Positions 7,302-17,484 of a DNA stretch of 64,000 bases are shown piece by piece (positions within the stretch are counted from its first letter, which is position 1; each line of letters opens with the position of its first letter). The notes under the pieces were generated by a model that worked only from the letters and a program-made list of their open reading frames with translations, searched no databases and was not told the origin of the DNA. Source of the stretch: Fimbriimonas sp. (GTDB lineage: Bacteria > Armatimonadota > Fimbriimonadia > Fimbriimonadales > Fimbriimonadaceae); the NCBI GenBank assembly GCA_031292555.1, contig JARLGV010000021.1:1-64000 (forward strand), written 5' to 3'. The translations under genes were made by a program, and so were the position numbers.

Positions 7302-8171
7302 TTAGCCGGCGGTGGCGCTTTTGCTCAACTCGTCTCGAAGCTGCTCGTAAGTGACGCCCTTTGCCGTGAGGGCCCGGGCGGTTGCGCTCGTGCCGTCGGC
7401 AAGCGCGGCGAGGAGGAAGTGTCCCCCATTTAGGCTCTGCCCAAGGCCCTTGGCCTCGTTGTCGGCCAGGCTGGCAATGTCGGACGCGCTAAGCCCTTCC
7501 TCGCCCAGCCCTTCCACCGTCTTCATTTCCAAAAGCTGCTCCTCTACGATCGAAGCCACTAGCACGGGAGCCACGCCGCAGGCGTGCAACGCATTCGCGC
7601 CGAGTTCGGCTTCCTCAAGAAGGAACGTCAGGCAGATGAGGTCGGCAATCATTCGTCGACGCCGGATCGAAAGCAGAATCCACGCAGAAGCGGGCGATTG
7701 GCTACTCCGTACCGGCGGCCTGACAGGCGGCGCCTCTATCTCCCCATCCTCATCTAGGACCAGTCGACGAATCGCCTCCAAGGTGACGCCAAGCCTTGCC
7801 AGCACACGCTGGGCAAGACCGTCGTCTTCCTTGAGCATGCCCAGAAGAAGGTGTTCGGTTCCGATGTAGTTGTGGTTCAGATTCCGCGCTTCTTCATATG
7901 CCAGGTCGATCACCCGCTTGGCGCGGGGCGTAAGGCTCATGTCCTGGCTGGGAATGGCCTCCTTCTTCGAGAGGCCAGATTCAATCTCCGACCGGACGAG
8001 GTCCGGCAGAATGTTCGCTCTGGAAAGCAACCTGCTTGCCCTGCTATCGGCCTCGCGAATAGATCCGAGCAACAAGTGCTCGGTGCTAACGAATCCGTCC
8101 CCGAATCTCTGGGCCGCTTCTTGAGCATAGAAGACCGCCTTCCGAGCCTCCTCCGTAAACCTCTGCCACAT
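7302..8171 (-). CDS. Stand-alone Clp N-terminal domain protein
   Basis: Residues 1-150 are a full double Clp-N domain as found at the start of ClpC: FTEEARKAVFYAQEAAQRF with FVSTEHLLLGSI, then LTPRAKRVIDLAYEEAR with YIGTEHLLLGML. A second, more divergent Clp-N-like repeat covers about residues 165-285 (SADNEAKGLGQSL...GHFLLAALADG). No AAA+ module follows, so it cannot unfold proteins itself. By analogy with ClpS/ClpC adaptor biology it may bind substrates or regulators of a Clp machine, or be an inhibitor. That is inference. The message is probably leaderless (TAAAAT six bases before ATG). Confidence 0.88.
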   Translation of the reverse strand: MWQRFTEEARKAVFYAQEAAQRFGDGFVSTEHLLLGSIREADSRASRLLSRANILPDLVRSEIESGLSKKEAIPSQDMSLTPRAKRVIDLAYEEARNLNHNYIGTEHLLLGMLKEDDGLAQRVLARLGVTLEAIRRLVLDEDGEIEAPPVRPPVRSSQSPASAWILLSIRRRRMIADLICLTFLLEEAELGANALHACGVAPVLVASIVEEQLLEMKTVEGLGEEGLSASDIASLADNEAKGLGQSLNGGHFLLAALADGTSATARALTAKGVTYEQLRDELSKSATAG

Positions 8172-8297: not shown

Positions 8298-9689
8298 ATG
8301 CAACGTTCATCAAAAACAACCCTCTTGTGGGTTTGGCTTTGGGTTCTTGCAGGTATTGGACTTCTAGGTACGACAGTATGGAAGTCGACGCAGCCGACCA
8401 TTCAGGGGGCCCCGATCGCCGAAATTCGGGCCGTACTTCCGCGTGAGCTGCTCACCGAGCCAACTCCCCCAAATCGAGCGGCAGAACATAGATTTCAAGA
8501 AGTCGAGTCAATTGCACTACGCCTCGATGCCAATGAAGTCCTGCAGGTTTGCGAGTTGGCCACGAAACAAACGGGGGTTGCGTCAGGACGCGATGACGGC
8601 CTTCGCCGACGGATCCACAGTATCTTTCAGGCAAATCCTGGCATTCTGCAGCGCCTTCGCTCGTTACTGAAGAGGGGTCCGTTGGCGTACCCGCAGGATC
8701 GATCGACCGAGGCTGCCCTAGACGAATTTCGCGTTTTCGCCTTCACGCGATTGCTCACAGCAGGTGTGCTGACCTATGCCCATCAGGACCAATTCCAGGC
8801 GAGCATCGATATGCTGGACTTGACGACACTACTTGATGATCGCCTCATGGCATCCGGAGGGACAACACTCTCATACGAGACCCTTCTCGTGGCTGAAGCT
8901 CAAGCCATCGCAACTGTCGCAAGTGTCGTTATGACACCAGGGATTCCAGCCTCGTCCTGCCGCCATATACTCGCTGCTTTGAGGCCCTCGCCCTATCCCG
9001 ACGAGTATCTTGCGAACGCAATTCGCCGTGATTTTGATCTGATCGAACTACCTTGTTTGCCAGACCCAAAGTCGGAACGGGCAATGATCGCTTTAGGCAT
9101 TCCTGCCCGGCAACGATCAGAAGCAATTAGTCGAATGGTAGGCAACTACGACGCAATCGAGACTGCCAAGGCGCTCGGAATTGCCACCGTCGTCGAGATC
9201 AAGAACGCAAGACGACCGATCTCCGAGTTTGACGAATCGGCGCACCGCATGTTGGCAAGACTCGAGATCCCGGACCGGCCGAACACAACTGGGAAAGCGG
9301 GGCCGCTTAAAGCTTTGCTCGACAGAGCATACGTTTTGAAAATGAACCGCATTCCCAACAGCCTTGGCCGCCAGTGCTTTCTATTCGGCAGTCATGCCCT
9401 GAGTCTCTTTGAAAGGATCTCAGATGGATGGCGAACCACTCGCGACCTTGTTCGTATCTCGCTGGCGGCACGTATCTATCGTGGCGATCATGGTGGCAGA
9501 CTCCCGCCAACGACCGATGGATTCCTACCACTGCTTGGAGCTTGGCCCAAAGACCCGTACAACGGGAAGCCGATGGTCTATCGACCAGAGCGGACAATTG
9601 CCTACAGCGTCGGTCCGGGACTTGTTGACACCGGTGGCACCATCGGAGACCCTCGCAAACTGCAGGTAACCGGAATTTTGTTGAAGTGA
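8298..9689 (+). CDS. Membrane-anchored protein with pseudopilin-like C-terminus
   Basis: I do not recognise the full protein (463 residues). It has one N-terminal transmembrane helix (TTLLWVWLWVLAGIGLLGTTVW, about residues 6-28), then a long mostly helical region of about 330 residues with no known motif. The last 70 residues (ARIYRGDHGGRLPP, then LPLLGAWPKDPYNGKP and YSVGPGLVDTGG) resemble the C-terminal part of GspG-type pseudopilin proteins, where the phrase PKDPYNGKPxxY is typical. Such proteins are common in Planctomycetota and Armatimonadota. Most of the protein would lie outside the cytoplasm. It is a single-gene unit with a probable leaderless start. Confidence 0.75.
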   Translation: MQRSSKTTLLWVWLWVLAGIGLLGTTVWKSTQPTIQGAPIAEIRAVLPRELLTEPTPPNRAAEHRFQEVESIALRLDANEVLQVCELATKQTGVASGRDDGLRRRIHSIFQANPGILQRLRSLLKRGPLAYPQDRSTEAALDEFRVFAFTRLLTAGVLTYAHQDQFQASIDMLDLTTLLDDRLMASGGTTLSYETLLVAEAQAIATVASVVMTPGIPASSCRHILAALRPSPYPDEYLANAIRRDFDLIELPCLPDPKSERAMIALGIPARQRSEAISRMVGNYDAIETAKALGIATVVEIKNARRPISEFDESAHRMLARLEIPDRPNTTGKAGPLKALLDRAYVLKMNRIPNSLGRQCFLFGSHALSLFERISDGWRTTRDLVRISLAARIYRGDHGGRLPPTTDGFLPLLGAWPKDPYNGKPMVYRPERTIAYSVGPGLVDTGGTIGDPRKLQVTGILLK

Positions 9690-9695
9690 CTGCGA

Positions 9696-10019
9696 ATGCC
9701 TCAGGTTCTATAGGACGACTGCGCTGCCATTCCATCAAACAGCCCTTATCCTGAGGGTGCGGGATGGCATTTTGAGCGAATTCGATGGATACCGTACATC
9801 CTTGTAGTCGGCTCAATTGGGCTTGATTCCTTTTTCCATCTGCATTTGAATCTGCTCTGGTATTACGTGCCTGCGATATCCGTTTGGCTTTTTGATGTGT
9901 TCTACGGGATGTATGCGAGAACGCGTGATACTAAACTGAATCAGTCATCACAATTTTATTGCTATACCTTTCAAACCGATACACTACCCAAGCACAGCTA
10001 CAGGCACCCGTTAGGGTAG
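9696..10019 (+). pseudogene. Membrane-protein ORF interrupted by TAG
   Basis: An ATG at 9696 reads five codons (MPQVL) and meets TAG at 9711-9713. The same frame then stays open for 101 codons to a TAG at 10017. The downstream part looks like protein, not noise: SPYPEGAGWHFERIRW is followed by two hydrophobic segments, WIPYILVVGSIGLDSFF and LLWYYVPAISVWLFDVF, and a positive-inside tail YARTRD. No alternative ATG or GTG opens the second part near its beginning. It could be a small membrane protein gene killed by a nonsense mutation, the 3' relic of a longer gene, or chance. The last 25 codons look less protein-like. Confidence 0.35.
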
Positions 10020-10030
10020 AACACGGCTCT

Positions 10031-10318
10031 ATGTCGAAGCAGCCGTCTCGCCGAGAGATCTTGAGCGCCGCGTCGGTTGGGATCGCCGCCGCCGCGATTC
10101 CTGGGATCGCATCCGCTCGAACGCGTCAGGAAACGACCGTGACCGCTATGGAAAAGGAATTTGCCAAGCCGCTATCGGATGAAGCGAAGAAGCTTCTCGC
10201 CGAATCGCTCAAGGGGATCGAAACGGCCCGGAAGGACCGGCTGAAAACGAAACTGCCTGAAAACACCGAGCCTTGCTTTACCTACATACCATCGACGCGT
10301 GAGGTCAGGGCCCGATGA
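10031..10318 (+). CDS. Tat-signal small protein upstream of amidase
   Basis: The 95-residue protein starts with a twin-arginine signal (SRREILSAASVGIAAAAIPGIASA, with the SRREIL box at residues 6-11). The mature part is about 65 residues, charged and helical, ending in FTYIPSTREVRAR, with no domain I recognise. The stop overlaps the amidase start (ATGA), so the two are made together. In many bacteria a Tat-signal segment of this kind is fused directly to a secreted amidase. Here the two parts sit in different frames, so either the leader protein is separate or a frameshift has split an ancestral fusion. An in-frame upstream start at 9959 is less likely because the Tat signal fits the ATG at 10031. 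Confidence 0.75.
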   Translation: MSKQPSRREILSAASVGIAAAAIPGIASARTRQETTVTAMEKEFAKPLSDEAKKLLAESLKGIETARKDRLKTKLPENTEPCFTYIPSTREVRAR

Positions 10319-11688
10319 GCGTCGGCCCATTCTCAAGCATCCGGGAGATGGCGAGAGCCCTGTCGAGCAGGCAGGTCTCCTCGGTCGAGCTCACCCAGAT
10401 GTACTTGGCGCGCCTCAAGACGATCGCCCACGAGCATCATGCGGTGGCCGAACTGACGCAGTCGCTGGCCCTCGAGCAGGCGAAAGCGGCGGACGCGTCG
10501 GTTGCCAAGTCGATTCTGCACGGCATCCCGTTCGGAGTGAAGGATCTGCTCGCCACGAAGGGGATTCCGACCCGATGGGGTTCGCCCGGCCATGCCGACC
10601 AGGTTTTCGACCACAACGCCACCGTCGTTCAGCGCCTGGAGGATGCGGGAGCCGTGCTCCTCGCCAAGCTGGAGATGATCGAGTTAGCGGGTGGCGGCAA
10701 CTACAACGTCGCCAACGCGAGCCGGATGGGACCCTGTCTGAGTGCGTGGGACAAGTCGCTGTGGGCTGGTGGTTCCAGCTCCGGTTCCGGCGCATCGACC
10801 GCCCTGGGGTGCGTCGGCTTTTCGATCGGAAGCGAAACGAGCGGCAGCATCGTTTGTCCGAGCGCCTTCAACGGCTGCACCGGTTTTCGCCCGACCTATG
10901 GTCGCGTCAGCCGGTACGGCGCGATGGCGCTCTGCTGGACGTTGGACAAGCTGGGACCGATCTGCCGTTCGGCCGACGACTGCGGGCTCGTGCTCGAAGC
11001 GATTGCCGGTCCAGACCCTCACGACGGAAGCACGCTCAAAGAGAAACTCAGCCTGCGGTCAAGGGGTCCCAAGCCAAGAATCGGGCTCCTCAAGGAGAAG
11101 TTCAAGGAGAGCAAGGCGGACGATTGCGAGAAGGCGTATCACAGTTTTCTCGACGTTCTGCGCAAGCAGGGGTACGAAACGGTCGAGGTCGCCTATCCCG
11201 ACCTTCCGTACGGGGCCGCCATCGACCTGATCGTCAATGCGGAGGGGGCAAGCGCCCACGAGAACTTCATTCGGGGACCGCGCTTCCAAATGCTCCAAGA
11301 TATCAACCAGGTGGCCGGCTTCGCGGCGGCGCTGGAAGTCAAGGCAGTGGATTATCTCTGGGCGATGCGCCTTCGCTCCGAGGCCTTGAGGGCGAATGCG
11401 GTGTGGGACAAGTGCGACTGCATCTTCACGCCCTCGTTCTATCATCGCGCCATTCCGATCGACCAGCCATTCGACAAGACTTGGGTGAATATGGGAGGCG
11501 ACGAGGGCCCTTCGAACCTGCTCGGGTGGCCGGCGTTGGCCTTCCCCATCGGATTCGAGAAGGGAGCGCCCATCGGCGGACAGATCATCGCTCCCGCGCT
11601 GCGAGAGGATATTTGTCTGCGCGTCGCCAAGGACTTCCAGCGAGGCTCAGGCTTCCACCTTCTCCATCCGGCAGAGGCGAGCGCCTAG
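10315..11688 (+). CDS. Amidase signature family hydrolase
   Basis: The 457-residue protein belongs to the amidase signature family (GatA-like, amide hydrolysis). The catalytic triad is visible: Lys in GIPFGVKDLLATKG, the cis-Ser in GGSSSGSGAS and the nucleophile Ser in GSETSGSI, each in the expected order. The C-terminal half is normal in length. No GatB or GatC lies nearby, so it is probably a general amidase and not the tRNA amidotransferase. It is translationally coupled to the Tat-signal gene in front of it. No signal peptide is present on this protein itself. Confidence 0.92.
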   Translation: MSVGPFSSIREMARALSSRQVSSVELTQMYLARLKTIAHEHHAVAELTQSLALEQAKAADASVAKSILHGIPFGVKDLLATKGIPTRWGSPGHADQVFDHNATVVQRLEDAGAVLLAKLEMIELAGGGNYNVANASRMGPCLSAWDKSLWAGGSSSGSGASTALGCVGFSIGSETSGSIVCPSAFNGCTGFRPTYGRVSRYGAMALCWTLDKLGPICRSADDCGLVLEAIAGPDPHDGSTLKEKLSLRSRGPKPRIGLLKEKFKESKADDCEKAYHSFLDVLRKQGYETVEVAYPDLPYGAAIDLIVNAEGASAHENFIRGPRFQMLQDINQVAGFAAALEVKAVDYLWAMRLRSEALRANAVWDKCDCIFTPSFYHRAIPIDQPFDKTWVNMGGDEGPSNLLGWPALAFPIGFEKGAPIGGQIIAPALREDICLRVAKDFQRGSGFHLLHPAEASA

Positions 11689-11710: not shown

Positions 11711-12679
11711 TCAGAGGGTTCCGAATTGGAACCCTCGCTTCCGGAGGTTCGCCACGATGTCCGGCAATGCTTCAAGCGTTACAGTAACGCCCGCGTGAAA
11801 TTGGATGACCGCGCCGTCGCGGACCGATGACAGGACTCGGCGAAGGAGTTCGGTCTTCGCCGGGCGCTGGTAGTCGAACGGGTCGATGACCGGGTGGCGA
11901 GGCGCCCCAACGATCGTTTCGTGACCCGGTGCACGGTAGAGTTGCGGCTCGAGGCCCAGGACCCGTTGGAACGCTTCGCGGCATCGCTCCAACTGCGGGT
12001 ATGCCGCGTCGTGATCCCACGAATGACACTGAAGCGACATCCCCTCGTCGCGCGCCCGACGTAGCAGGCGATTCTGGGGTTCGATCCGCGAGCCGATGCA
12101 GAAGAGAGTCGCTTTGACATTCGTGGCCCGCAAAGCGTCCAGCAGGTCGTCGCTTCCGCCCGGCGACGGGAAGTCGTCGAACGTGAGATAGATTACGCCC
12201 GAATTAGCCTTCGGTTCCATGGCCTGGTGAACCGCATCGAGAACGTCTTGGGAGCGGTTTACCGCCCCGGAGACGTACCGAATCTCCCCCGTCTTGTCCA
12301 GAACCACGGTGGTCGGAACGCGATCCACCGCATGGGCCCGGCACCATTCCCCGCCATCGTCGAGCCAAAGCGGGAGACTCCGGCTGTTTTGCGACTTCTC
12401 TACCCATCGCCCGTCGACACTTACGGTGATGAAGTCGACCGGCAGCCCGTTCGTCGCATTCTTCGCCGCCTCAAGGCGGGGGATCTCCTGCTTCCAGGTA
12501 TCGCACCAATAGGCGCAGAATGAGACGACCGTAACCTTGCCCGGCTTCCATTCGGTCGGCGAGCCGGCAAGGTCGCGCATACGCATAGAGTCCCATGTTT
12601 CGCCGATCGCCGGATTCGCCTTCCCTACCGATACCAGGGCGGCCAAGACAGTCAGAACACAAAGGGCTCGGGAGATCAC
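11711..12679 (-). CDS. Secreted thioredoxin-like / polysaccharide deacetylase fusion
   Basis: The 322-residue protein has three parts. Residues 1-21 are a signal peptide. Residues about 25-155 are a TlpA-like thioredoxin fold (VTVVSFCAYWCDTW, then VPTTVVLDKTGEI). Residues about 160-320 are a NodB-type polysaccharide deacetylase with metal-site motifs TFDD (Asp168/169), HSWDH (His219, His223) and RAPGH at 249-253. The usual WCxxC is WCDTW, so the second redox Cys is gone, but Cys55 gives an unusual C-x3-C pair with Cys59. The GTG start overlaps the macroglobulin stop (GTGA), so it is the last gene of a coupled three-gene operon. It probably acts on envelope glycans. A hairpin overlaps its 3' end. 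Confidence 0.87.
   Translation of the reverse strand: MISRALCVLTVLAALVSVGKANPAIGETWDSMRMRDLAGSPTEWKPGKVTVVSFCAYWCDTWKQEIPRLEAAKNATNGLPVDFITVSVDGRWVEKSQNSRSLPLWLDDGGEWCRAHAVDRVPTTVVLDKTGEIRYVSGAVNRSQDVLDAVHQAMEPKANSGVIYLTFDDFPSPGGSDDLLDALRATNVKATLFCIGSRIEPQNRLLRRARDEGMSLQCHSWDHDAAYPQLERCREAFQRVLGLEPQLYRAPGHETIVGAPRHPVIDPFDYQRPAKTELLRRVLSSVRDGAVIQFHAGVTVTLEALPDIVANLRKRGFQFGTL
11714..11736. terminator. Hairpin between convergent amidase and macroglobulin operon
   Basis: GAGGGTTCC and GGAACCCTC pair over nine bases around a five-base loop. The hairpin lies inside the last codons of the minus-strand gene and 26 bases after the amidase stop. There is no strong U-tract, so function as a terminator is tentative. 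Confidence 0.4.
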
Positions 12680-15600
12680 GGGCTGACGATCACCTCCATC
12701 GCATTGCTGTTCCCGTGGGTCGCCGGGCGACGGAGGTATTCGGCGACGGCAGGCAGCGCAATCAGTCTTCCGTCCGACTCGGCCCTCAAGTAATAGCGGA
12801 AGTATGTCGGGGTCCCCGCGTTCAGCAGGTAGTGAACGACCGCTCCGTCACGGACCTCTTCCCTTGAATAGGATGTGTAGTCCGAGTCGACATACTCGAA
12901 TCCGGCCGGGATCGGCTCGGTGACCTTGAGCGCATCGGGGAGGTCGTCGCCCCACACGACGACGGTGCACCGGACCGGTTCAGAGGGTTTGACGTGGCCG
13001 GAGATCTCCGTCCAGACGCCGGCATCGTTCATCGCCTCGAATCGGCGCACGACTCGAACTCCGTGAATCGACTCGTCGAGTTGCGGACGGTAGGAGTGGA
13101 CTTCGACCGTATAGAGCGCCTCTCCGTCGCCGGTTCGCGTGAGTTCCAAGGTATTCGATCCCCCGTGAAGCACGGGATCCCGAATTTCAACCATCGCCGA
13201 CTCAGAGACCGTCGAGTGGTCCAATTGATAGGACGAACCGTTCAGCCGGACCTCGGCTTGACCGATCTCCTTTGCGTCGGGATGCTCCTTGGCGTAGAGG
13301 TCGAGGGCGAGAGCGGTCGAGGCGATGTCCTCCGCGCTCGAATACGACTGGCGGTCCGGAATGGCGAGCCGGCGGGCCAGTTTCGACTGAAGCGCCGGTT
13401 TCTCCTTCAGCAGGTTGAGATCCAACAGCAGTGCGGCGGTCGTCTCCGTTTCGGAAGCCGTCCAGCCGACGCCAAACCCGACCGGCACGTAGGCGGTTGC
13501 CGGACCTTCGGAAATCAATCCCAGTACTTCATCGACCAGGCTTTGGGCGGCGCCGGGGTTGGTCTTGATCAGCGCTTCCGCAAGTCGAAGCTTGCCGAAC
13601 GGGGAGATCTTCAGCCCCCTTTGGACGACCTCGTCGCATAGGGTCGGCGCATATTTGTCGCCAAGGAACATCAGAGACGCGGCGAGGCGCGCACGATCTT
13701 CCCACAGGTTCGTCCGGTTGTATTGATTCTGGCAACCGCCTACCGCCGCTTGAAAGGTGCTGTTGAAGACGGTATAGCCATTGTTTCGAGCCAGTGCAAG
13801 AGCGTAACCCACCTCGGCGGTGATCTTCGCTTCCGACGGCGCCATCTCCCACCACCCCCATCCGTCGTATAGCTGCGTGCGGGAGAGCAGGGCAAACGCC
13901 TCCTTGACATCGTCGGCGTCCGCCGGGACATGGAGCACGCATGCCGCCTTCAGGGCATTCACCGACCACATCGTGCCGTACCGGCCATAGTGGAGCAGAT
14001 TGGCGGCGCCATTTCGCGCTCCGGCCTGGATGCCGCCGGATACGACGACCTTGACCAACGAACCCTGCGGCAGGGTGTCGATGGGAAGGTCAATATACGC
14101 CTTGGTCTTCGTCGCGACGGTTCCGCCGACCAGGTGAGTGGACGAGAGGCCACGCGGCACGACCGGAACCGTTACTTGAAGCGCATCGCCGTCGTCAGCA
14201 GACCCGGAGCCGTCGGCCGTAACCCTGGCCGTGAGCGTCATGAAGCCCTTGCCCGGCACGTCCTTGGCGAACAGCCGCCATCGGACCGTTTTCTCGCCCT
14301 TGGCCGGAACCTGAAGCGCTTGGACATGATCGTTGTCGATAACGACGCCGTCCGCTTCGAGAGATACGGTGAAGGGCATCGCTCGGGCAGTCCGGTTGTC
14401 GACCGTGCCGATCAGCACGAGTCGGTCACCCTGCGCGACGACCCGGGGGGTTGCCAGACGCAAGGTAACCGGCCGGGTTGCCGTTACATTCATGTGCCCG
14501 GCGCCGACTCGGGTGTCGGCGGTAACCGCACGCCCGGTCGCTCGCCAAGACGTCAGGTTGCCCGGCATCTCAAACGAAACTTGGCCATTGCCGTCCGCCC
14601 CCGTTTCCACCAGGGCATTCCAGAAGGCGGTGTCCTCAAAGCGCTGCCGAATCGGGGCGACGCTGTTCGATCGCTGGAAGGCTCCTCCCGAAAGCTCCTC
14701 GGGCATCGACTGGTTTGTCGAGACCCGGTCTTCTCGCTGACCCCAATAGAATCCGTATGGGTCTGGAGTGAAATCCTCGCTGATCGCGTAGATCGCCTCG
14801 TCGACGACCGAGACGGCGACCTCCGACGGCACGCCTTGTCCTCTGCGGTCGACGGTTCGGACCTTGAAACTGGCTCGGTCGCCCGGTTTGTATTCCGCTT
14901 TGTCCGGCTGGATCTGCACGGTCAACAGCTTGTCTCGGTCGGCCAAGGGCACGATCGCGTTGCCCGCCATCATGCCGGTTTCCGACCACTGATTTACGGT
15001 GACGAAGGCGTTCGGCGATTCCGACCTAGCAGTCGGAATCGTCCATGTCAAGGAGCCCTTGGATGACCCATACACCCTGTATTGCCATAGGTCGCCGCCG
15101 GTCATCGTTAGGAGCAGCGGCCGCTTCGGCCGATTCGTGAAAACAAACGCACGAACCCGTTCGCCCGGCTCATAGGAGTGCTTGTCCAGCTTGAGGTCGA
15201 TCGATGGAGCTTCAACCTCTTTGCCCGGTTTGTAGTCCATCCCCATGACCTGAACCGTCGTTTCGGCCTGCGCTTTGCGTCCGTTCCGGTCGTGGGTGGT
15301 CGCCACGAAATACAACTCGCCGTATGCCAGCGCCGGCAGGTTGACGGTTGCTTGACCGGTCGTGGGAACCGCAACCGTCTTCGTGCTGAGAACTTTTGGC
15401 CGGAAGATCCCTTCCTTCCCGATCCACTCCTGGGTGATAACCTGGATCTGGACCTTTGCCGCCGAAGGGTGGCCATCGATGTCGACCACCCGCACTTCCA
15501 CCGGAACCAGATCGCCGATCGCCACCGCTTGCTTCAGGCACGAGAGCCCCAACCGAAGCTCGGATGCATACACGGTCACGCCGCCGCTTCCATCAACCTG

Positions 15601-16920
15601 CCTTCGCGAGGAATCGGACACTGCGACGCTCAGCGAGTAAGTGGAATCGGGCGCGTTCGGATCGGAGTGAATGAGAACGTCGGCATGCCCGTGGTTGTCG
15701 GTGACGACCTGACCCTCGCCGACAAACGGCGAACTCCGGAAGTTGTCCCGGGCATACAGGTTCCCGTCGCCGCCATAGAACCAACGATCCTCCGGATTGC
15801 CCCAACGATAGGGCGAGCTATTCCTTCGAATGGTCCAACGAACGGACGCTTGGGGCACCGGTGCGCCGAAGTAGAAGGCGGCGTCTACCGAGAAGTGCAA
15901 ATCGTCGCCCGAGAAATAGCGTCGCTGTACCGGCTTGACGTCCACCTTGAACTCCGGTTTCCGATAGGCCGATACGGTGAAGGTCTGGTAGGCGTCTTGC
16001 CCACCCACGTGAAGGACGATCGTGTAGGGACCCATCATCCCCTCCTGCGGAATGCGGAAGCTCCCTGCCACCGAGCCGATGCCGTTCGCATGAAGGGTCT
16101 GCTGGTCGAGAGGATTATCTCGCGGGTCGCGGAGTTGAGCATTTACGGTCGCGCCCGATTCTGGCTCGTAGATCTGCCCTTTTGTAAGCCTTAGGATGGC
16201 CTTGAAACTGACCGTCTGGCCAGGCCGGTAGATGGGGCGGTCGGTCTGGAACAGGCATCGCAAATGACCGTCGGGACTCTCGGCGAACGACTCAAGCCCG
16301 GCAATGTCCTTATCGGTTCGAACGATGATCCGGCGAAATCCGGGCTTCATGGGAAGGAGCGAGATGCCGTCACTATCGGTCGTGGAGACCTCCATCCGTT
16401 GGCCGCGATTGTCGAAATAGTCGATTTTGGCCCGAGGCACGACCAAACCGGACTTGAAATCGGTCACCCAAACTAACGATCGATACGGCGACCGCTTGGT
16501 GACGGCGCAGAGGTTGGTCACGTTCACGACCGCCCATGTGGATTGGCCGCCTCCGGTGAAAATCATCTCGTAGACGCCCGGCTTCATCGGTGGCAGGTTG
16601 ACCTGGCGCGAAAAGTAATTGTCGAACTGGTTGACTGCCTGGCCGCGCTTGGCAATCGTCAAATCGAAATTCGAGGTCGGACCGCCGATCGCTCGGGGCC
16701 GCTCCTTGACATCGTGGTTTCGGCAGAGCCAATCCAGCCCATCGACCGGAATCATCGCAACGTGAACGATCGCAACGTTGCGCGTGTTGATGTTCAGCCG
16801 AATCTTGGAGCTCGGGGCCACGTTCTGGGAGACCCAGGCGTGAACCTCTCGAGGCGCCTCAGGCGGTTGTTGCGGCAGGACCGCGAAACACAAGGCGGCA
16901 AATGCCAGACACTGAATCAT
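12676..16920 (-). CDS. Alpha-2-macroglobulin family protein, thioester lost
   Basis: The 1414-residue protein starts with a signal peptide (MIQCLAFAALCFAVLP) and has the bacterial alpha-2-macroglobulin layout. There are several MG beta-sandwich domains (DRPIYRPGQTVSFKAILR is the MG2 signature). A bait region around residue 700-800 is followed by the core motif SFEMPGNLTSWRATGRAVT, then the helical thioester-domain region and the C-terminal receptor-like domain. Where thioester members read YGCTEQ, this one reads YGRYGTMWS (near residue 975), so Cys and Gln are gone and no covalent trap can form. The ATG at 16920 is preceded by AAGGAG and overlaps the stop of the AMMECR1 gene. No pbpC/penicillin-binding partner is adjacent. 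Expected role: envelope protease trapping or a structural role. Confidence 0.93.
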   Translation of the reverse strand: MIQCLAFAALCFAVLPQQPPEAPREVHAWVSQNVAPSSKIRLNINTRNVAIVHVAMIPVDGLDWLCRNHDVKERPRAIGGPTSNFDLTIAKRGQAVNQFDNYFSRQVNLPPMKPGVYEMIFTGGGQSTWAVVNVTNLCAVTKRSPYRSLVWVTDFKSGLVVPRAKIDYFDNRGQRMEVSTTDSDGISLLPMKPGFRRIIVRTDKDIAGLESFAESPDGHLRCLFQTDRPIYRPGQTVSFKAILRLTKGQIYEPESGATVNAQLRDPRDNPLDQQTLHANGIGSVAGSFRIPQEGMMGPYTIVLHVGGQDAYQTFTVSAYRKPEFKVDVKPVQRRYFSGDDLHFSVDAAFYFGAPVPQASVRWTIRRNSSPYRWGNPEDRWFYGGDGNLYARDNFRSSPFVGEGQVVTDNHGHADVLIHSDPNAPDSTYSLSVAVSDSSRRQVDGSGGVTVYASELRLGLSCLKQAVAIGDLVPVEVRVVDIDGHPSAAKVQIQVITQEWIGKEGIFRPKVLSTKTVAVPTTGQATVNLPALAYGELYFVATTHDRNGRKAQAETTVQVMGMDYKPGKEVEAPSIDLKLDKHSYEPGERVRAFVFTNRPKRPLLLTMTGGDLWQYRVYGSSKGSLTWTIPTARSESPNAFVTVNQWSETGMMAGNAIVPLADRDKLLTVQIQPDKAEYKPGDRASFKVRTVDRRGQGVPSEVAVSVVDEAIYAISEDFTPDPYGFYWGQREDRVSTNQSMPEELSGGAFQRSNSVAPIRQRFEDTAFWNALVETGADGNGQVSFEMPGNLTSWRATGRAVTADTRVGAGHMNVTATRPVTLRLATPRVVAQGDRLVLIGTVDNRTARAMPFTVSLEADGVVIDNDHVQALQVPAKGEKTVRWRLFAKDVPGKGFMTLTARVTADGSGSADDGDALQVTVPVVPRGLSSTHLVGGTVATKTKAYIDLPIDTLPQGSLVKVVVSGGIQAGARNGAANLLHYGRYGTMWSVNALKAACVLHVPADADDVKEAFALLSRTQLYDGWGWWEMAPSEAKITAEVGYALALARNNGYTVFNSTFQAAVGGCQNQYNRTNLWEDRARLAASLMFLGDKYAPTLCDEVVQRGLKISPFGKLRLAEALIKTNPGAAQSLVDEVLGLISEGPATAYVPVGFGVGWTASETETTAALLLDLNLLKEKPALQSKLARRLAIPDRQSYSSAEDIASTALALDLYAKEHPDAKEIGQAEVRLNGSSYQLDHSTVSESAMVEIRDPVLHGGSNTLELTRTGDGEALYTVEVHSYRPQLDESIHGVRVVRRFEAMNDAGVWTEISGHVKPSEPVRCTVVVWGDDLPDALKVTEPIPAGFEYVDSDYTSYSREEVRDGAVVHYLLNAGTPTYFRYYLRAESDGRLIALPAVAEYLRRPATHGNSNAMEVIVSP

Positions 16921-17453
16921 CCTCGACTCCTTGAAGCGACCATGCGGAAGAGTTGCGCCGGCGAACCGGTTGCCACTCCCGCCTTTCGATAGGCCCATTG
17001 CAAGCGAATAGAGGGGTCCTTCCCCTCCCACGGCAATACGACTCCCGTCCGATTCCCCGCCTTGAGCACCAACCCATCTCCCGGCTCCAAACCCTCGACC
17101 GACGAGATCGGATGGGTTCCCTCAACCACCGTTACGGTAACCAGGAATCCAGGCAGGTCAGATTTGGCGATCGGTCGATATCGCGGATCGTGGGCGGCTG
17201 CCCCTCGGGCCGCCGAGACCACCTCCTCTTCGAGCGACGCGGTCCGGGGCTCCAGCGATCCGCGGCATCCGAGGACCTGTCCATTCCGTTCGATCGTCAC
17301 AAAAACCGGCCGAACCGTCGACCGCCGCTCTACGCGAGTGGTCGGTTTGCCAAGGACCTCCGCTATCACCGCGTTCCGAGCAAGCTCGATCAAATTACGA
17401 TCGGGATCGGGGACACAGAGGAGGGGGAGAAGCGCTAACGCGGTAACCAACAT
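16917..17453 (-). CDS. Exported AMMECR1-domain protein
   Basis: The 178-residue protein matches the AMMECR1 domain: VRPVFVTIERNGQVLGCRGSLEP (family consensus ...LRGCIGTLEP, conserved Cys63), then VVSAARGAAAHDPRYRPI, LPGFLVTVTVVEGTHPISS and GNRTGVVLP. Unlike the usual cytoplasmic members it begins with a hydrophobic signal sequence (MLVTALALLPLLCVP), which suggests export. The domain's biochemical role is not settled, and in many prokaryotes it is fused or adjacent to MEMO-family proteins. Here it is the first gene of a coupled operon (ATGA overlap with the macroglobulin gene). A hairpin lies directly upstream. The call of the domain is firm; the export is inferred. Confidence 0.85.
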   Translation of the reverse strand: MLVTALALLPLLCVPDPDRNLIELARNAVIAEVLGKPTTRVERRSTVRPVFVTIERNGQVLGCRGSLEPRTASLEEEVVSAARGAAAHDPRYRPIAKSDLPGFLVTVTVVEGTHPISSVEGLEPGDGLVLKAGNRTGVVLPWEGKDPSIRLQWAYRKAGVATGSPAQLFRMVASRSRG

Positions 17454-17456
17454 AGC

Positions 17457-17484
17457 CTATCTGGGGATAGGACGCCCCAGATAG
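17457..17484. promoter_or_regulatory. Inverted repeat upstream of the AMMECR1 operon
   Basis: CTATCTGGGG and CCCCAGATAG form ten-base arms around eight bases. The repeat begins four bases before the AMMECR1 start codon on the minus strand. It could be an operator or a 5' hairpin that controls translation. Confidence 0.5.

Follow-up and report, generated by a model that had tools for sequence, protein, structure and literature searches.

The subject of this analysis is a three-gene operon on the minus strand of a 64,000-nucleotide stretch from Fimbriimonas sp. (Armatimonadota; contig JARLGV010000021.1, positions 1 to 64,000; in the following, the window), which belongs to an assembly of 6.46 Mb and 140 contigs. 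The operon encodes an AMMECR1-domain protein of 178 amino acids (16917–17453), a thioester-less alpha-2-macroglobulin of 1414 amino acids (12676–16920), and a thioredoxin-like protein of 322 amino acids with a NodB-type polysaccharide deacetylase domain, here called TrxDAC (11711–12679). The overlaps described in the initial annotation are present, whereby the AMMECR1 stop and the macroglobulin start share ATGA (16917–16920) and the macroglobulin stop and the start of gene 3 share GTGA (12676–12679). Since gene 3 is followed by a convergent amidase gene and AMMECR1 is preceded by a divergent gene, the operon consists of exactly three genes. A start of AMMECR1 further upstream is impossible because TAG GCT sits in frame before its ATG. 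The macroglobulin start lies 37 codons downstream of the one in the program-made list of open reading frames and has AAGGAG just upstream of the ATG. Comparison of the AMMECR1–macroglobulin junction in nine genomes yielded a 4-base overlap in six of them and distances of -1 to +4 in the other three. All three products begin with a hydrophobic, export-signal-like segment and are predicted to be exported, in line with the signal sequences that had been proposed and likewise judged from the sequence.

Sequence and structural features of the three proteins

The AMMECR1 protein matches PF01871 with 83.7 bits (cut-off 25) over residues 23–162 and is the only AMMECR1 match in its genome. In the AlphaFold model (pLDDT 94) the domain begins at residue 17, so that the signal-like residues 1–16 (17406–17453), which follow directly from the fixed start, lie outside the fold. 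Its structural matches were PDB 1vaj (PH0010; TM 0.77), 1zq7, and 1wsc, and beyond AMMECR1 entries the Foldseek search with this model returned none at E < 0.001. Cysteine C63 (17265–17267) lies in LGCRG, the equivalent of the LRGCIG motif, and is conserved without exception across the alignment (55 of 55 AMMECR1 proteins), as are F51, G65, G127, and L140. PMC5502304 names the LRGCIG motif and states the function of AMMECR1 as unknown, and Memo–AMMECR1 systems are cited in PMC7159879. The window protein scored 72.5 bits against TIGR04335, below the cut-off of 99, and no Memo match was obtained in the window genome (0 matches) nor in any of the 10 operon-bearing genomes of the family. A Memo-dependent role of this AMMECR1 was rejected for that reason.

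The macroglobulin shows the domains of a bacterial alpha-2-macroglobulin, with MG2, the bait-region domain A2M_BRD (55.5 bits), and A2M all above the Pfam cut-offs. As had been claimed initially, the CxEQ thioester is absent: GRYGTMW (13966–13986) occupies the site of PYGCxEQ, and none of the eight aligned sequences has the motif. The protein therefore falls outside Type I of the bacterial alpha-2-macroglobulins, which is defined by the thioester, and agrees with Type II, which has none. In PMC5764988, Type I is described together with PBP1c and Type II with the mag operon.

For TrxDAC, Pfam assigned AhpC-TSA/Redoxin and Polysacc_deac_1. The thioredoxin motif is C59-D-T-W62 (12494–12505), in which the second cysteine is replaced by tryptophan, and thus not a ResA-type CxxC. 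Residues W58, C59, T61, and W62 are invariant in 31 aligned sequences, and C59 is located directly before helix 61–75 of the AlphaFold model (pLDDT 92), at the expected thioredoxin active site. This model matches PgdA/PdaC-type deacetylases as well as ResA/StoA thioredoxins. In the deacetylase domain (11714–12208), D168, D169, H219, H223, R249, and H295 are invariant in eight aligned rows, an alignment from which the copy of genome G017 (L024) was excluded, as it has lost these residues. We take them to be the metal-binding and catalytic residues of family CE4 and assign the domain to the CE4 deacetylases.

Conservation of the operon and of its AMMECR1 subfamily

Within the window's own family (f numbers are codes for GTDB families, f1 being that of the window), a PF01871 search of 60 relatives detected AMMECR1 in eight other genomes, and in all eight the order is AMMECR1–macroglobulin–TrxDAC. 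The same order occurs in G003 (L096), whose AMMECR1 was missed by PF01871 and found by alignment. Among the matches listed, the order is present in 10/10 AMMECR1-bearing f1 genomes, window included, and the remaining f1 genomes have no AMMECR1 match. A gene order confined to this genome would, according to the initial annotation, have spoken against its reading. The order instead recurs throughout these members of the family, and the adjacency of AMMECR1 and macroglobulin extends across the phylum. The complete order is also found in f16 and f10, whose copies are nested among those of f1 in both the AMMECR1 and the macroglobulin tree, which suggests transfer. Together with the patchy presence of the operon within the genus, this nesting would fit an anti-phage or contact-dependent defence cassette. 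However, PADLOC gave 0 matches for all three proteins, so that such a cassette appears extremely unlikely, and the anti-phage function, which had been considered at the outset, was rejected.

Within the genus, the genomes that bear the operon (3.8–6.5 Mb) are larger than most of those without it (2.6–4.9 Mb). Between the divergent genes, right before the AMMECR1 start, there is a perfect 10-bp inverted repeat with an 8-base loop (17457–17484). It was rejected as a conserved regulatory hairpin, as no relative retains it and 10 of 638 pieces of the window contain a similar repeat. Elsewhere in the window, the protein encoded at 7302–8171 has Clp N-terminal repeats as its sole Pfam matches above cut-off and contains no ATPase part.

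Across the phylum, an alignment search gave AMMECR1-like matches in at least 139 of 291 Armatimonadota genomes, and the neighbourhoods of 156 AMMECR1 loci, including that of the window, were scored by script. A macroglobulin was adjacent at 27 loci, 92 were unfused without macroglobulin, 25 were fused to Memo, and 12 to PlsY; none of the 37 fused AMMECR1 genes (Memo or PlsY) had an adjacent macroglobulin. In the sister family f2, AMMECR1 is fused behind a PlsY glycerol-3-phosphate acyltransferase in 12 loci (L032–L042, L241), five of which were checked by Pfam. The automatic signal rule was passed by 23 of the 27 macroglobulin-adjacent AMMECR1 proteins. Among the other four, L023 and L094 have, by our reading, a hydrophobic start that was rejected over one polar residue, L132 is truncated by a contig end, and the AMMECR1 of HR16 (L098) has no clear signal. 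Only six of the 92 unlinked proteins passed (L148, L162, L170, L197, L217, L097). Here, L217 is by our reading a false call from a wrong start, L097 is signal-bearing and unlinked, and at L197 the reading frame directly after AMMECR1, at the position of the macroglobulin, runs into the contig end and has no Pfam match.

Linkage of AMMECR1 and macroglobulin was found in 14 family codes (f1, f10, f11, f12, f13, f16, f19, f26, f35, f37, f40, f42, f43, f44), a count that includes L058 (G257) and L262 (G089), whereby the macroglobulin of L262 is identical to that of L055. Outside Armatimonadota, the Bacillota genome G302 encodes a signal-bearing AMMECR1 followed by a macroglobulin that breaks off at the end of the contig (L141), and on another contig a macroglobulin end with a WCDTWK thioredoxin (L062). 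A scan of GTDB r220 with TrxDAC patterns reached 21 loci, 17 of them with [YF]WCDTWK (L046, with LWCDTWR, is not counted). A macroglobulin is located directly upstream at 16 of these 17, the exception being L059, and 11 of the 12 loci with a complete macroglobulin have AMMECR1 next to it (upstream in 10 and downstream in one, HR16). At ten loci reached through AMMECR1 (L109, L129–L137), the thioredoxins carry WCDTW in eight cases, WCETW in one, and WCCTW in one. The free thioredoxins of linked families outside the window's clade have open frames of about 165–260 amino acids, one being longer.

In the AMMECR1 tree of 163 domains, all 31 macroglobulin-linked domains fall into one clade of 48 rows (SH-aLRT 95, by a quick method), which lies away from the Memo-fused proteins and the PlsY fusions. 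The other 17 members comprise further exported copies, three from G299 and G302, and ten f19 proteins that form a group without signal and carry an ACWG motif (e.g., L102, L104, L107). The predicted exported AMMECR1 proteins thus appear as a subfamily apart from the cytosolic Memo-type proteins. Neighbouring genes of an old cluster could have been kept by descent and transfer without any joint function, which would agree with signal and linkage having mainly a single origin and with the occurrence of several component genes apart from each other. We consider this very unlikely, since over the 14 family codes the genes are still adjacent and overlap briefly where AMMECR1 identity is down to about 30%, and HR16 retains the linkage despite a different gene order. 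It is this adjacency at large divergence from which the case draws its strength; the linkage is well supported, and sequence comparison describes a real, widely retained module.

Loss of the thioester and association with peptidoglycan genes

In most linked families outside the window's clade, the macroglobulin retains PYGC[A/T/M]EQ and the thioredoxin is a separate protein, whereas f1, f10, and f16 have the TrxDAC fusion and no thioester. Further, the macroglobulin of L138 is without the thioester motif, and that of L141 ends before the motif position. The window genome encodes a second macroglobulin (L249; contig C23, 31000–40000) with a PYGCVEQ thioester, which belongs to a group unlinked to AMMECR1. 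The linked macroglobulins of the window's clade separate in the tree from such thioester macroglobulins elsewhere in the same genomes, L249 included. This pattern indicates that the window's clade has lost the thioester and gained the fusion of thioredoxin and NodB deacetylase, with HR16, which combines a thioester macroglobulin with TrxDAC, as a putative intermediate. The core would then consist of AMMECR1, macroglobulin, and a predicted exported single-cysteine thioredoxin (WCDTW), whereas the deacetylase presents itself as a lineage-specific addition.

The frequent thioester raises the question of whether AMMECR1 and the CDTW thioredoxin work as secreted thiol factors by which the Cys–Gln thioester of the macroglobulin is formed, protected, or reloaded, in which case the window's clade would be derived and its helpers reused. 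Both AMMECR1 and the thioredoxin have an invariant cysteine, and most other linked families retain PYGC[A/T/M]EQ beside AMMECR1, mostly also with the thioredoxin. However, f1, f10, and f16 keep both partners with their cysteines in the absence of a thioester, and the thioester macroglobulin L249 of the same genome falls into the unlinked group. Moreover, other alpha-2-macroglobulin thioesters are not known to need helpers for their formation. Thioester care is therefore an improbable explanation, and a thioester-only role was rejected as the sole function because the window's clade retains both partners after the loss of the thioester.

The gene neighbourhoods point to the cell wall. In f35 (L138), Pfam identified the order PBP transpeptidase–SpoIID–AMMECR1–macroglobulin–VanW, and in f26 (L113) SpoIID–AMMECR1–macroglobulin–VanW. 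PBP–SpoIID–AMMECR1 without an adjacent macroglobulin occurs in f31 (L148 and L162), in f36 (L170, where the PBP is cut by the contig end), and in the Bacillota genome G302 (L142). No recognised wall enzyme was found beside the scanned linked cassettes L058, L131, and L129, which lie outside f26, f35, and the deacetylase-fused families. One AMMECR1 subfamily thus seems to have two kinds of peptidoglycan association, the NodB fusion and PBP–SpoIID(–VanW). The wall link follows from these two contexts, macroglobulin with thioredoxin(-deacetylase) on the one hand and PBP, SpoIID, and AMMECR1, in part with macroglobulin and VanW, on the other, and an envelope or peptidoglycan role of the predicted system is supported by gene context (NodB deacetylase, PBP–SpoIID–AMMECR1, VanW).

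The same context could also mean that the system matures peptidoglycan without trapping proteases, whereby exported AMMECR1 would be an enzyme that modifies the wall or senses glycans, with the macroglobulin as no more than its scaffold. The PBP–SpoIID–AMMECR1 operons of f31 (two genomes), f36, and Bacillota, in which no macroglobulin is adjacent, would agree with this, as would the NodB fusion and the VanW genes in f26 and f35. Retention of the bait-region domain and the lack of a recognised wall enzyme beside the three scanned cassettes argue against it, and we regard it as rather unlikely.

Proposed function and comparison with known systems

Our preferred reading, to which we assign a probability of about 0.45, is that the operon represents a peptidoglycan-linked module of Armatimonadota for envelope protection, centred on an exported bacterial alpha-2-macroglobulin. 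The biochemical roles given here to the three products are inferred. By analogy to MagD, the macroglobulin would close on proteases that reach the cell envelope without forming a covalent bond. The thioredoxin-deacetylase would deacetylate peptidoglycan and harden the wall against lysozyme-like enzymes. Exported AMMECR1 would be a dedicated small partner that acts via its cysteine and might hold or condition the macroglobulin or act on wall fragments. That exported AMMECR1 constitutes a new class of envelope enzymes or ligand-binding proteins with a catalytic cysteine, which serves peptidoglycan surveillance in settings with macroglobulin and monothiol thioredoxin as well as with PBP and SpoIID, is a tentative and somewhat doubtful proposal.

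Several observations weigh against envelope protection by this module. The signal of the window AMMECR1 has no basic n-region. The macroglobulin alignment has no invariant cysteine and thus offers the partners' conserved thiols no evident target. In L024 of G017 the macroglobulin gene is spread over two frames and the deacetylase is without catalytic motifs, which is either decay or an assembly error. In HR16 the three genes stand in another order, and AMMECR1 and thioredoxin are without clear signal. L060 has macroglobulin and thioredoxin, with no AMMECR1 match in its genome. The raw association between signal and linkage (Fisher p 3e-15) is phylogenetically non-independent and does not amount to proof: the signal changes three times on the tree, and signal and linkage together seem to have a single origin or nearly so, which means that linked genomes cannot be counted as separate events. 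A test of independent pairs comprised only one to two pairs and was uninformative. Apart from this, L060 encodes, beside its thioester macroglobulin, a WCDTWK thioredoxin fused to a CAP domain (9551–10753).

Of the undescribed envelope system that the initial annotation had suggested, the conserved tie between AMMECR1 and macroglobulin and the peptidoglycan gene context stood up, whereas the deacetylase turned out to be lineage-specific, a free thioredoxin is the third member in most other families, and the thioester is kept in relatives. Judged by titles and the first part of abstracts, no paper was found that joins AMMECR1 to bacterial macroglobulins or describes such a module, and the listed publications with both terms are human expression or proteomics papers. 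Outside this comparison stands the work of Burroughs 2019 (J Biol Chem), which reportedly deals with Memo–AMMECR1 systems. The module probably belongs to a so far undescribed system of cell-wall protection. AMMECR1, a human disease gene, has been conserved from bacteria up to humans. Through the exported subfamily it is connected with a location (the envelope), with partner proteins (macroglobulin and single-cysteine thioredoxin), and with peptidoglycan as a substrate class, and each of these connections is testable. If exported AMMECR1 is indeed an envelope enzyme or ligand binder, its chemistry would explain the molecular function of the whole family, human AMMECR1 included.

With regard to the single components, the window AMMECR1 has the fold and the invariant cysteine in common with AmmeMemoRadiSam system protein A (TIGR04335) but differs by its signal, the LGCRG motif, its separate clade, and the absence of Memo from the genome. 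TrxDAC shares catalytic residues and fold with the CE4 peptidoglycan deacetylases PgdA, PdaA, and PdaC, whereas its deacetylase is fused behind a thioredoxin domain and its substrate is a prediction. With the ResA/StoA/TlpA thioredoxins it has the fold and the predicted export in common, but CDTW takes the place of CxxC. As a whole, the module would come closest in function to an envelope protection set with a macroglobulin at its centre, similar to Type I with PBP1c and to the Mag complex. According to PMC5764988, the thioester-less MagD traps a protease and interacts with MagA, MagB, and MagF. The mag operon of Pseudomonas aeruginosa (Type II) likewise combines a thioester-less macroglobulin with a bait region and envelope partners. 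The partners named there are MagA–C, E, and F, compared to AMMECR1 and TrxDAC here, where no search was run with the Mag proteins. Among linked relatives beyond the thioester-less clade, most retain the thioester. Type I with PBP1c (YfhM type), as described in the same paper, also pairs a macroglobulin with a peptidoglycan gene, but the window protein is without thioester and has other partner genes, and its genome encodes the separate thioester macroglobulin L249. Since the module lacks the Type I thioester and its partners, judged without a search with Mag proteins, differ from those named for mag, it is placed in neither group, and the best reading is that it constitutes a third operon type of bacterial alpha-2-macroglobulin beside Type I with PBP1c and mag.

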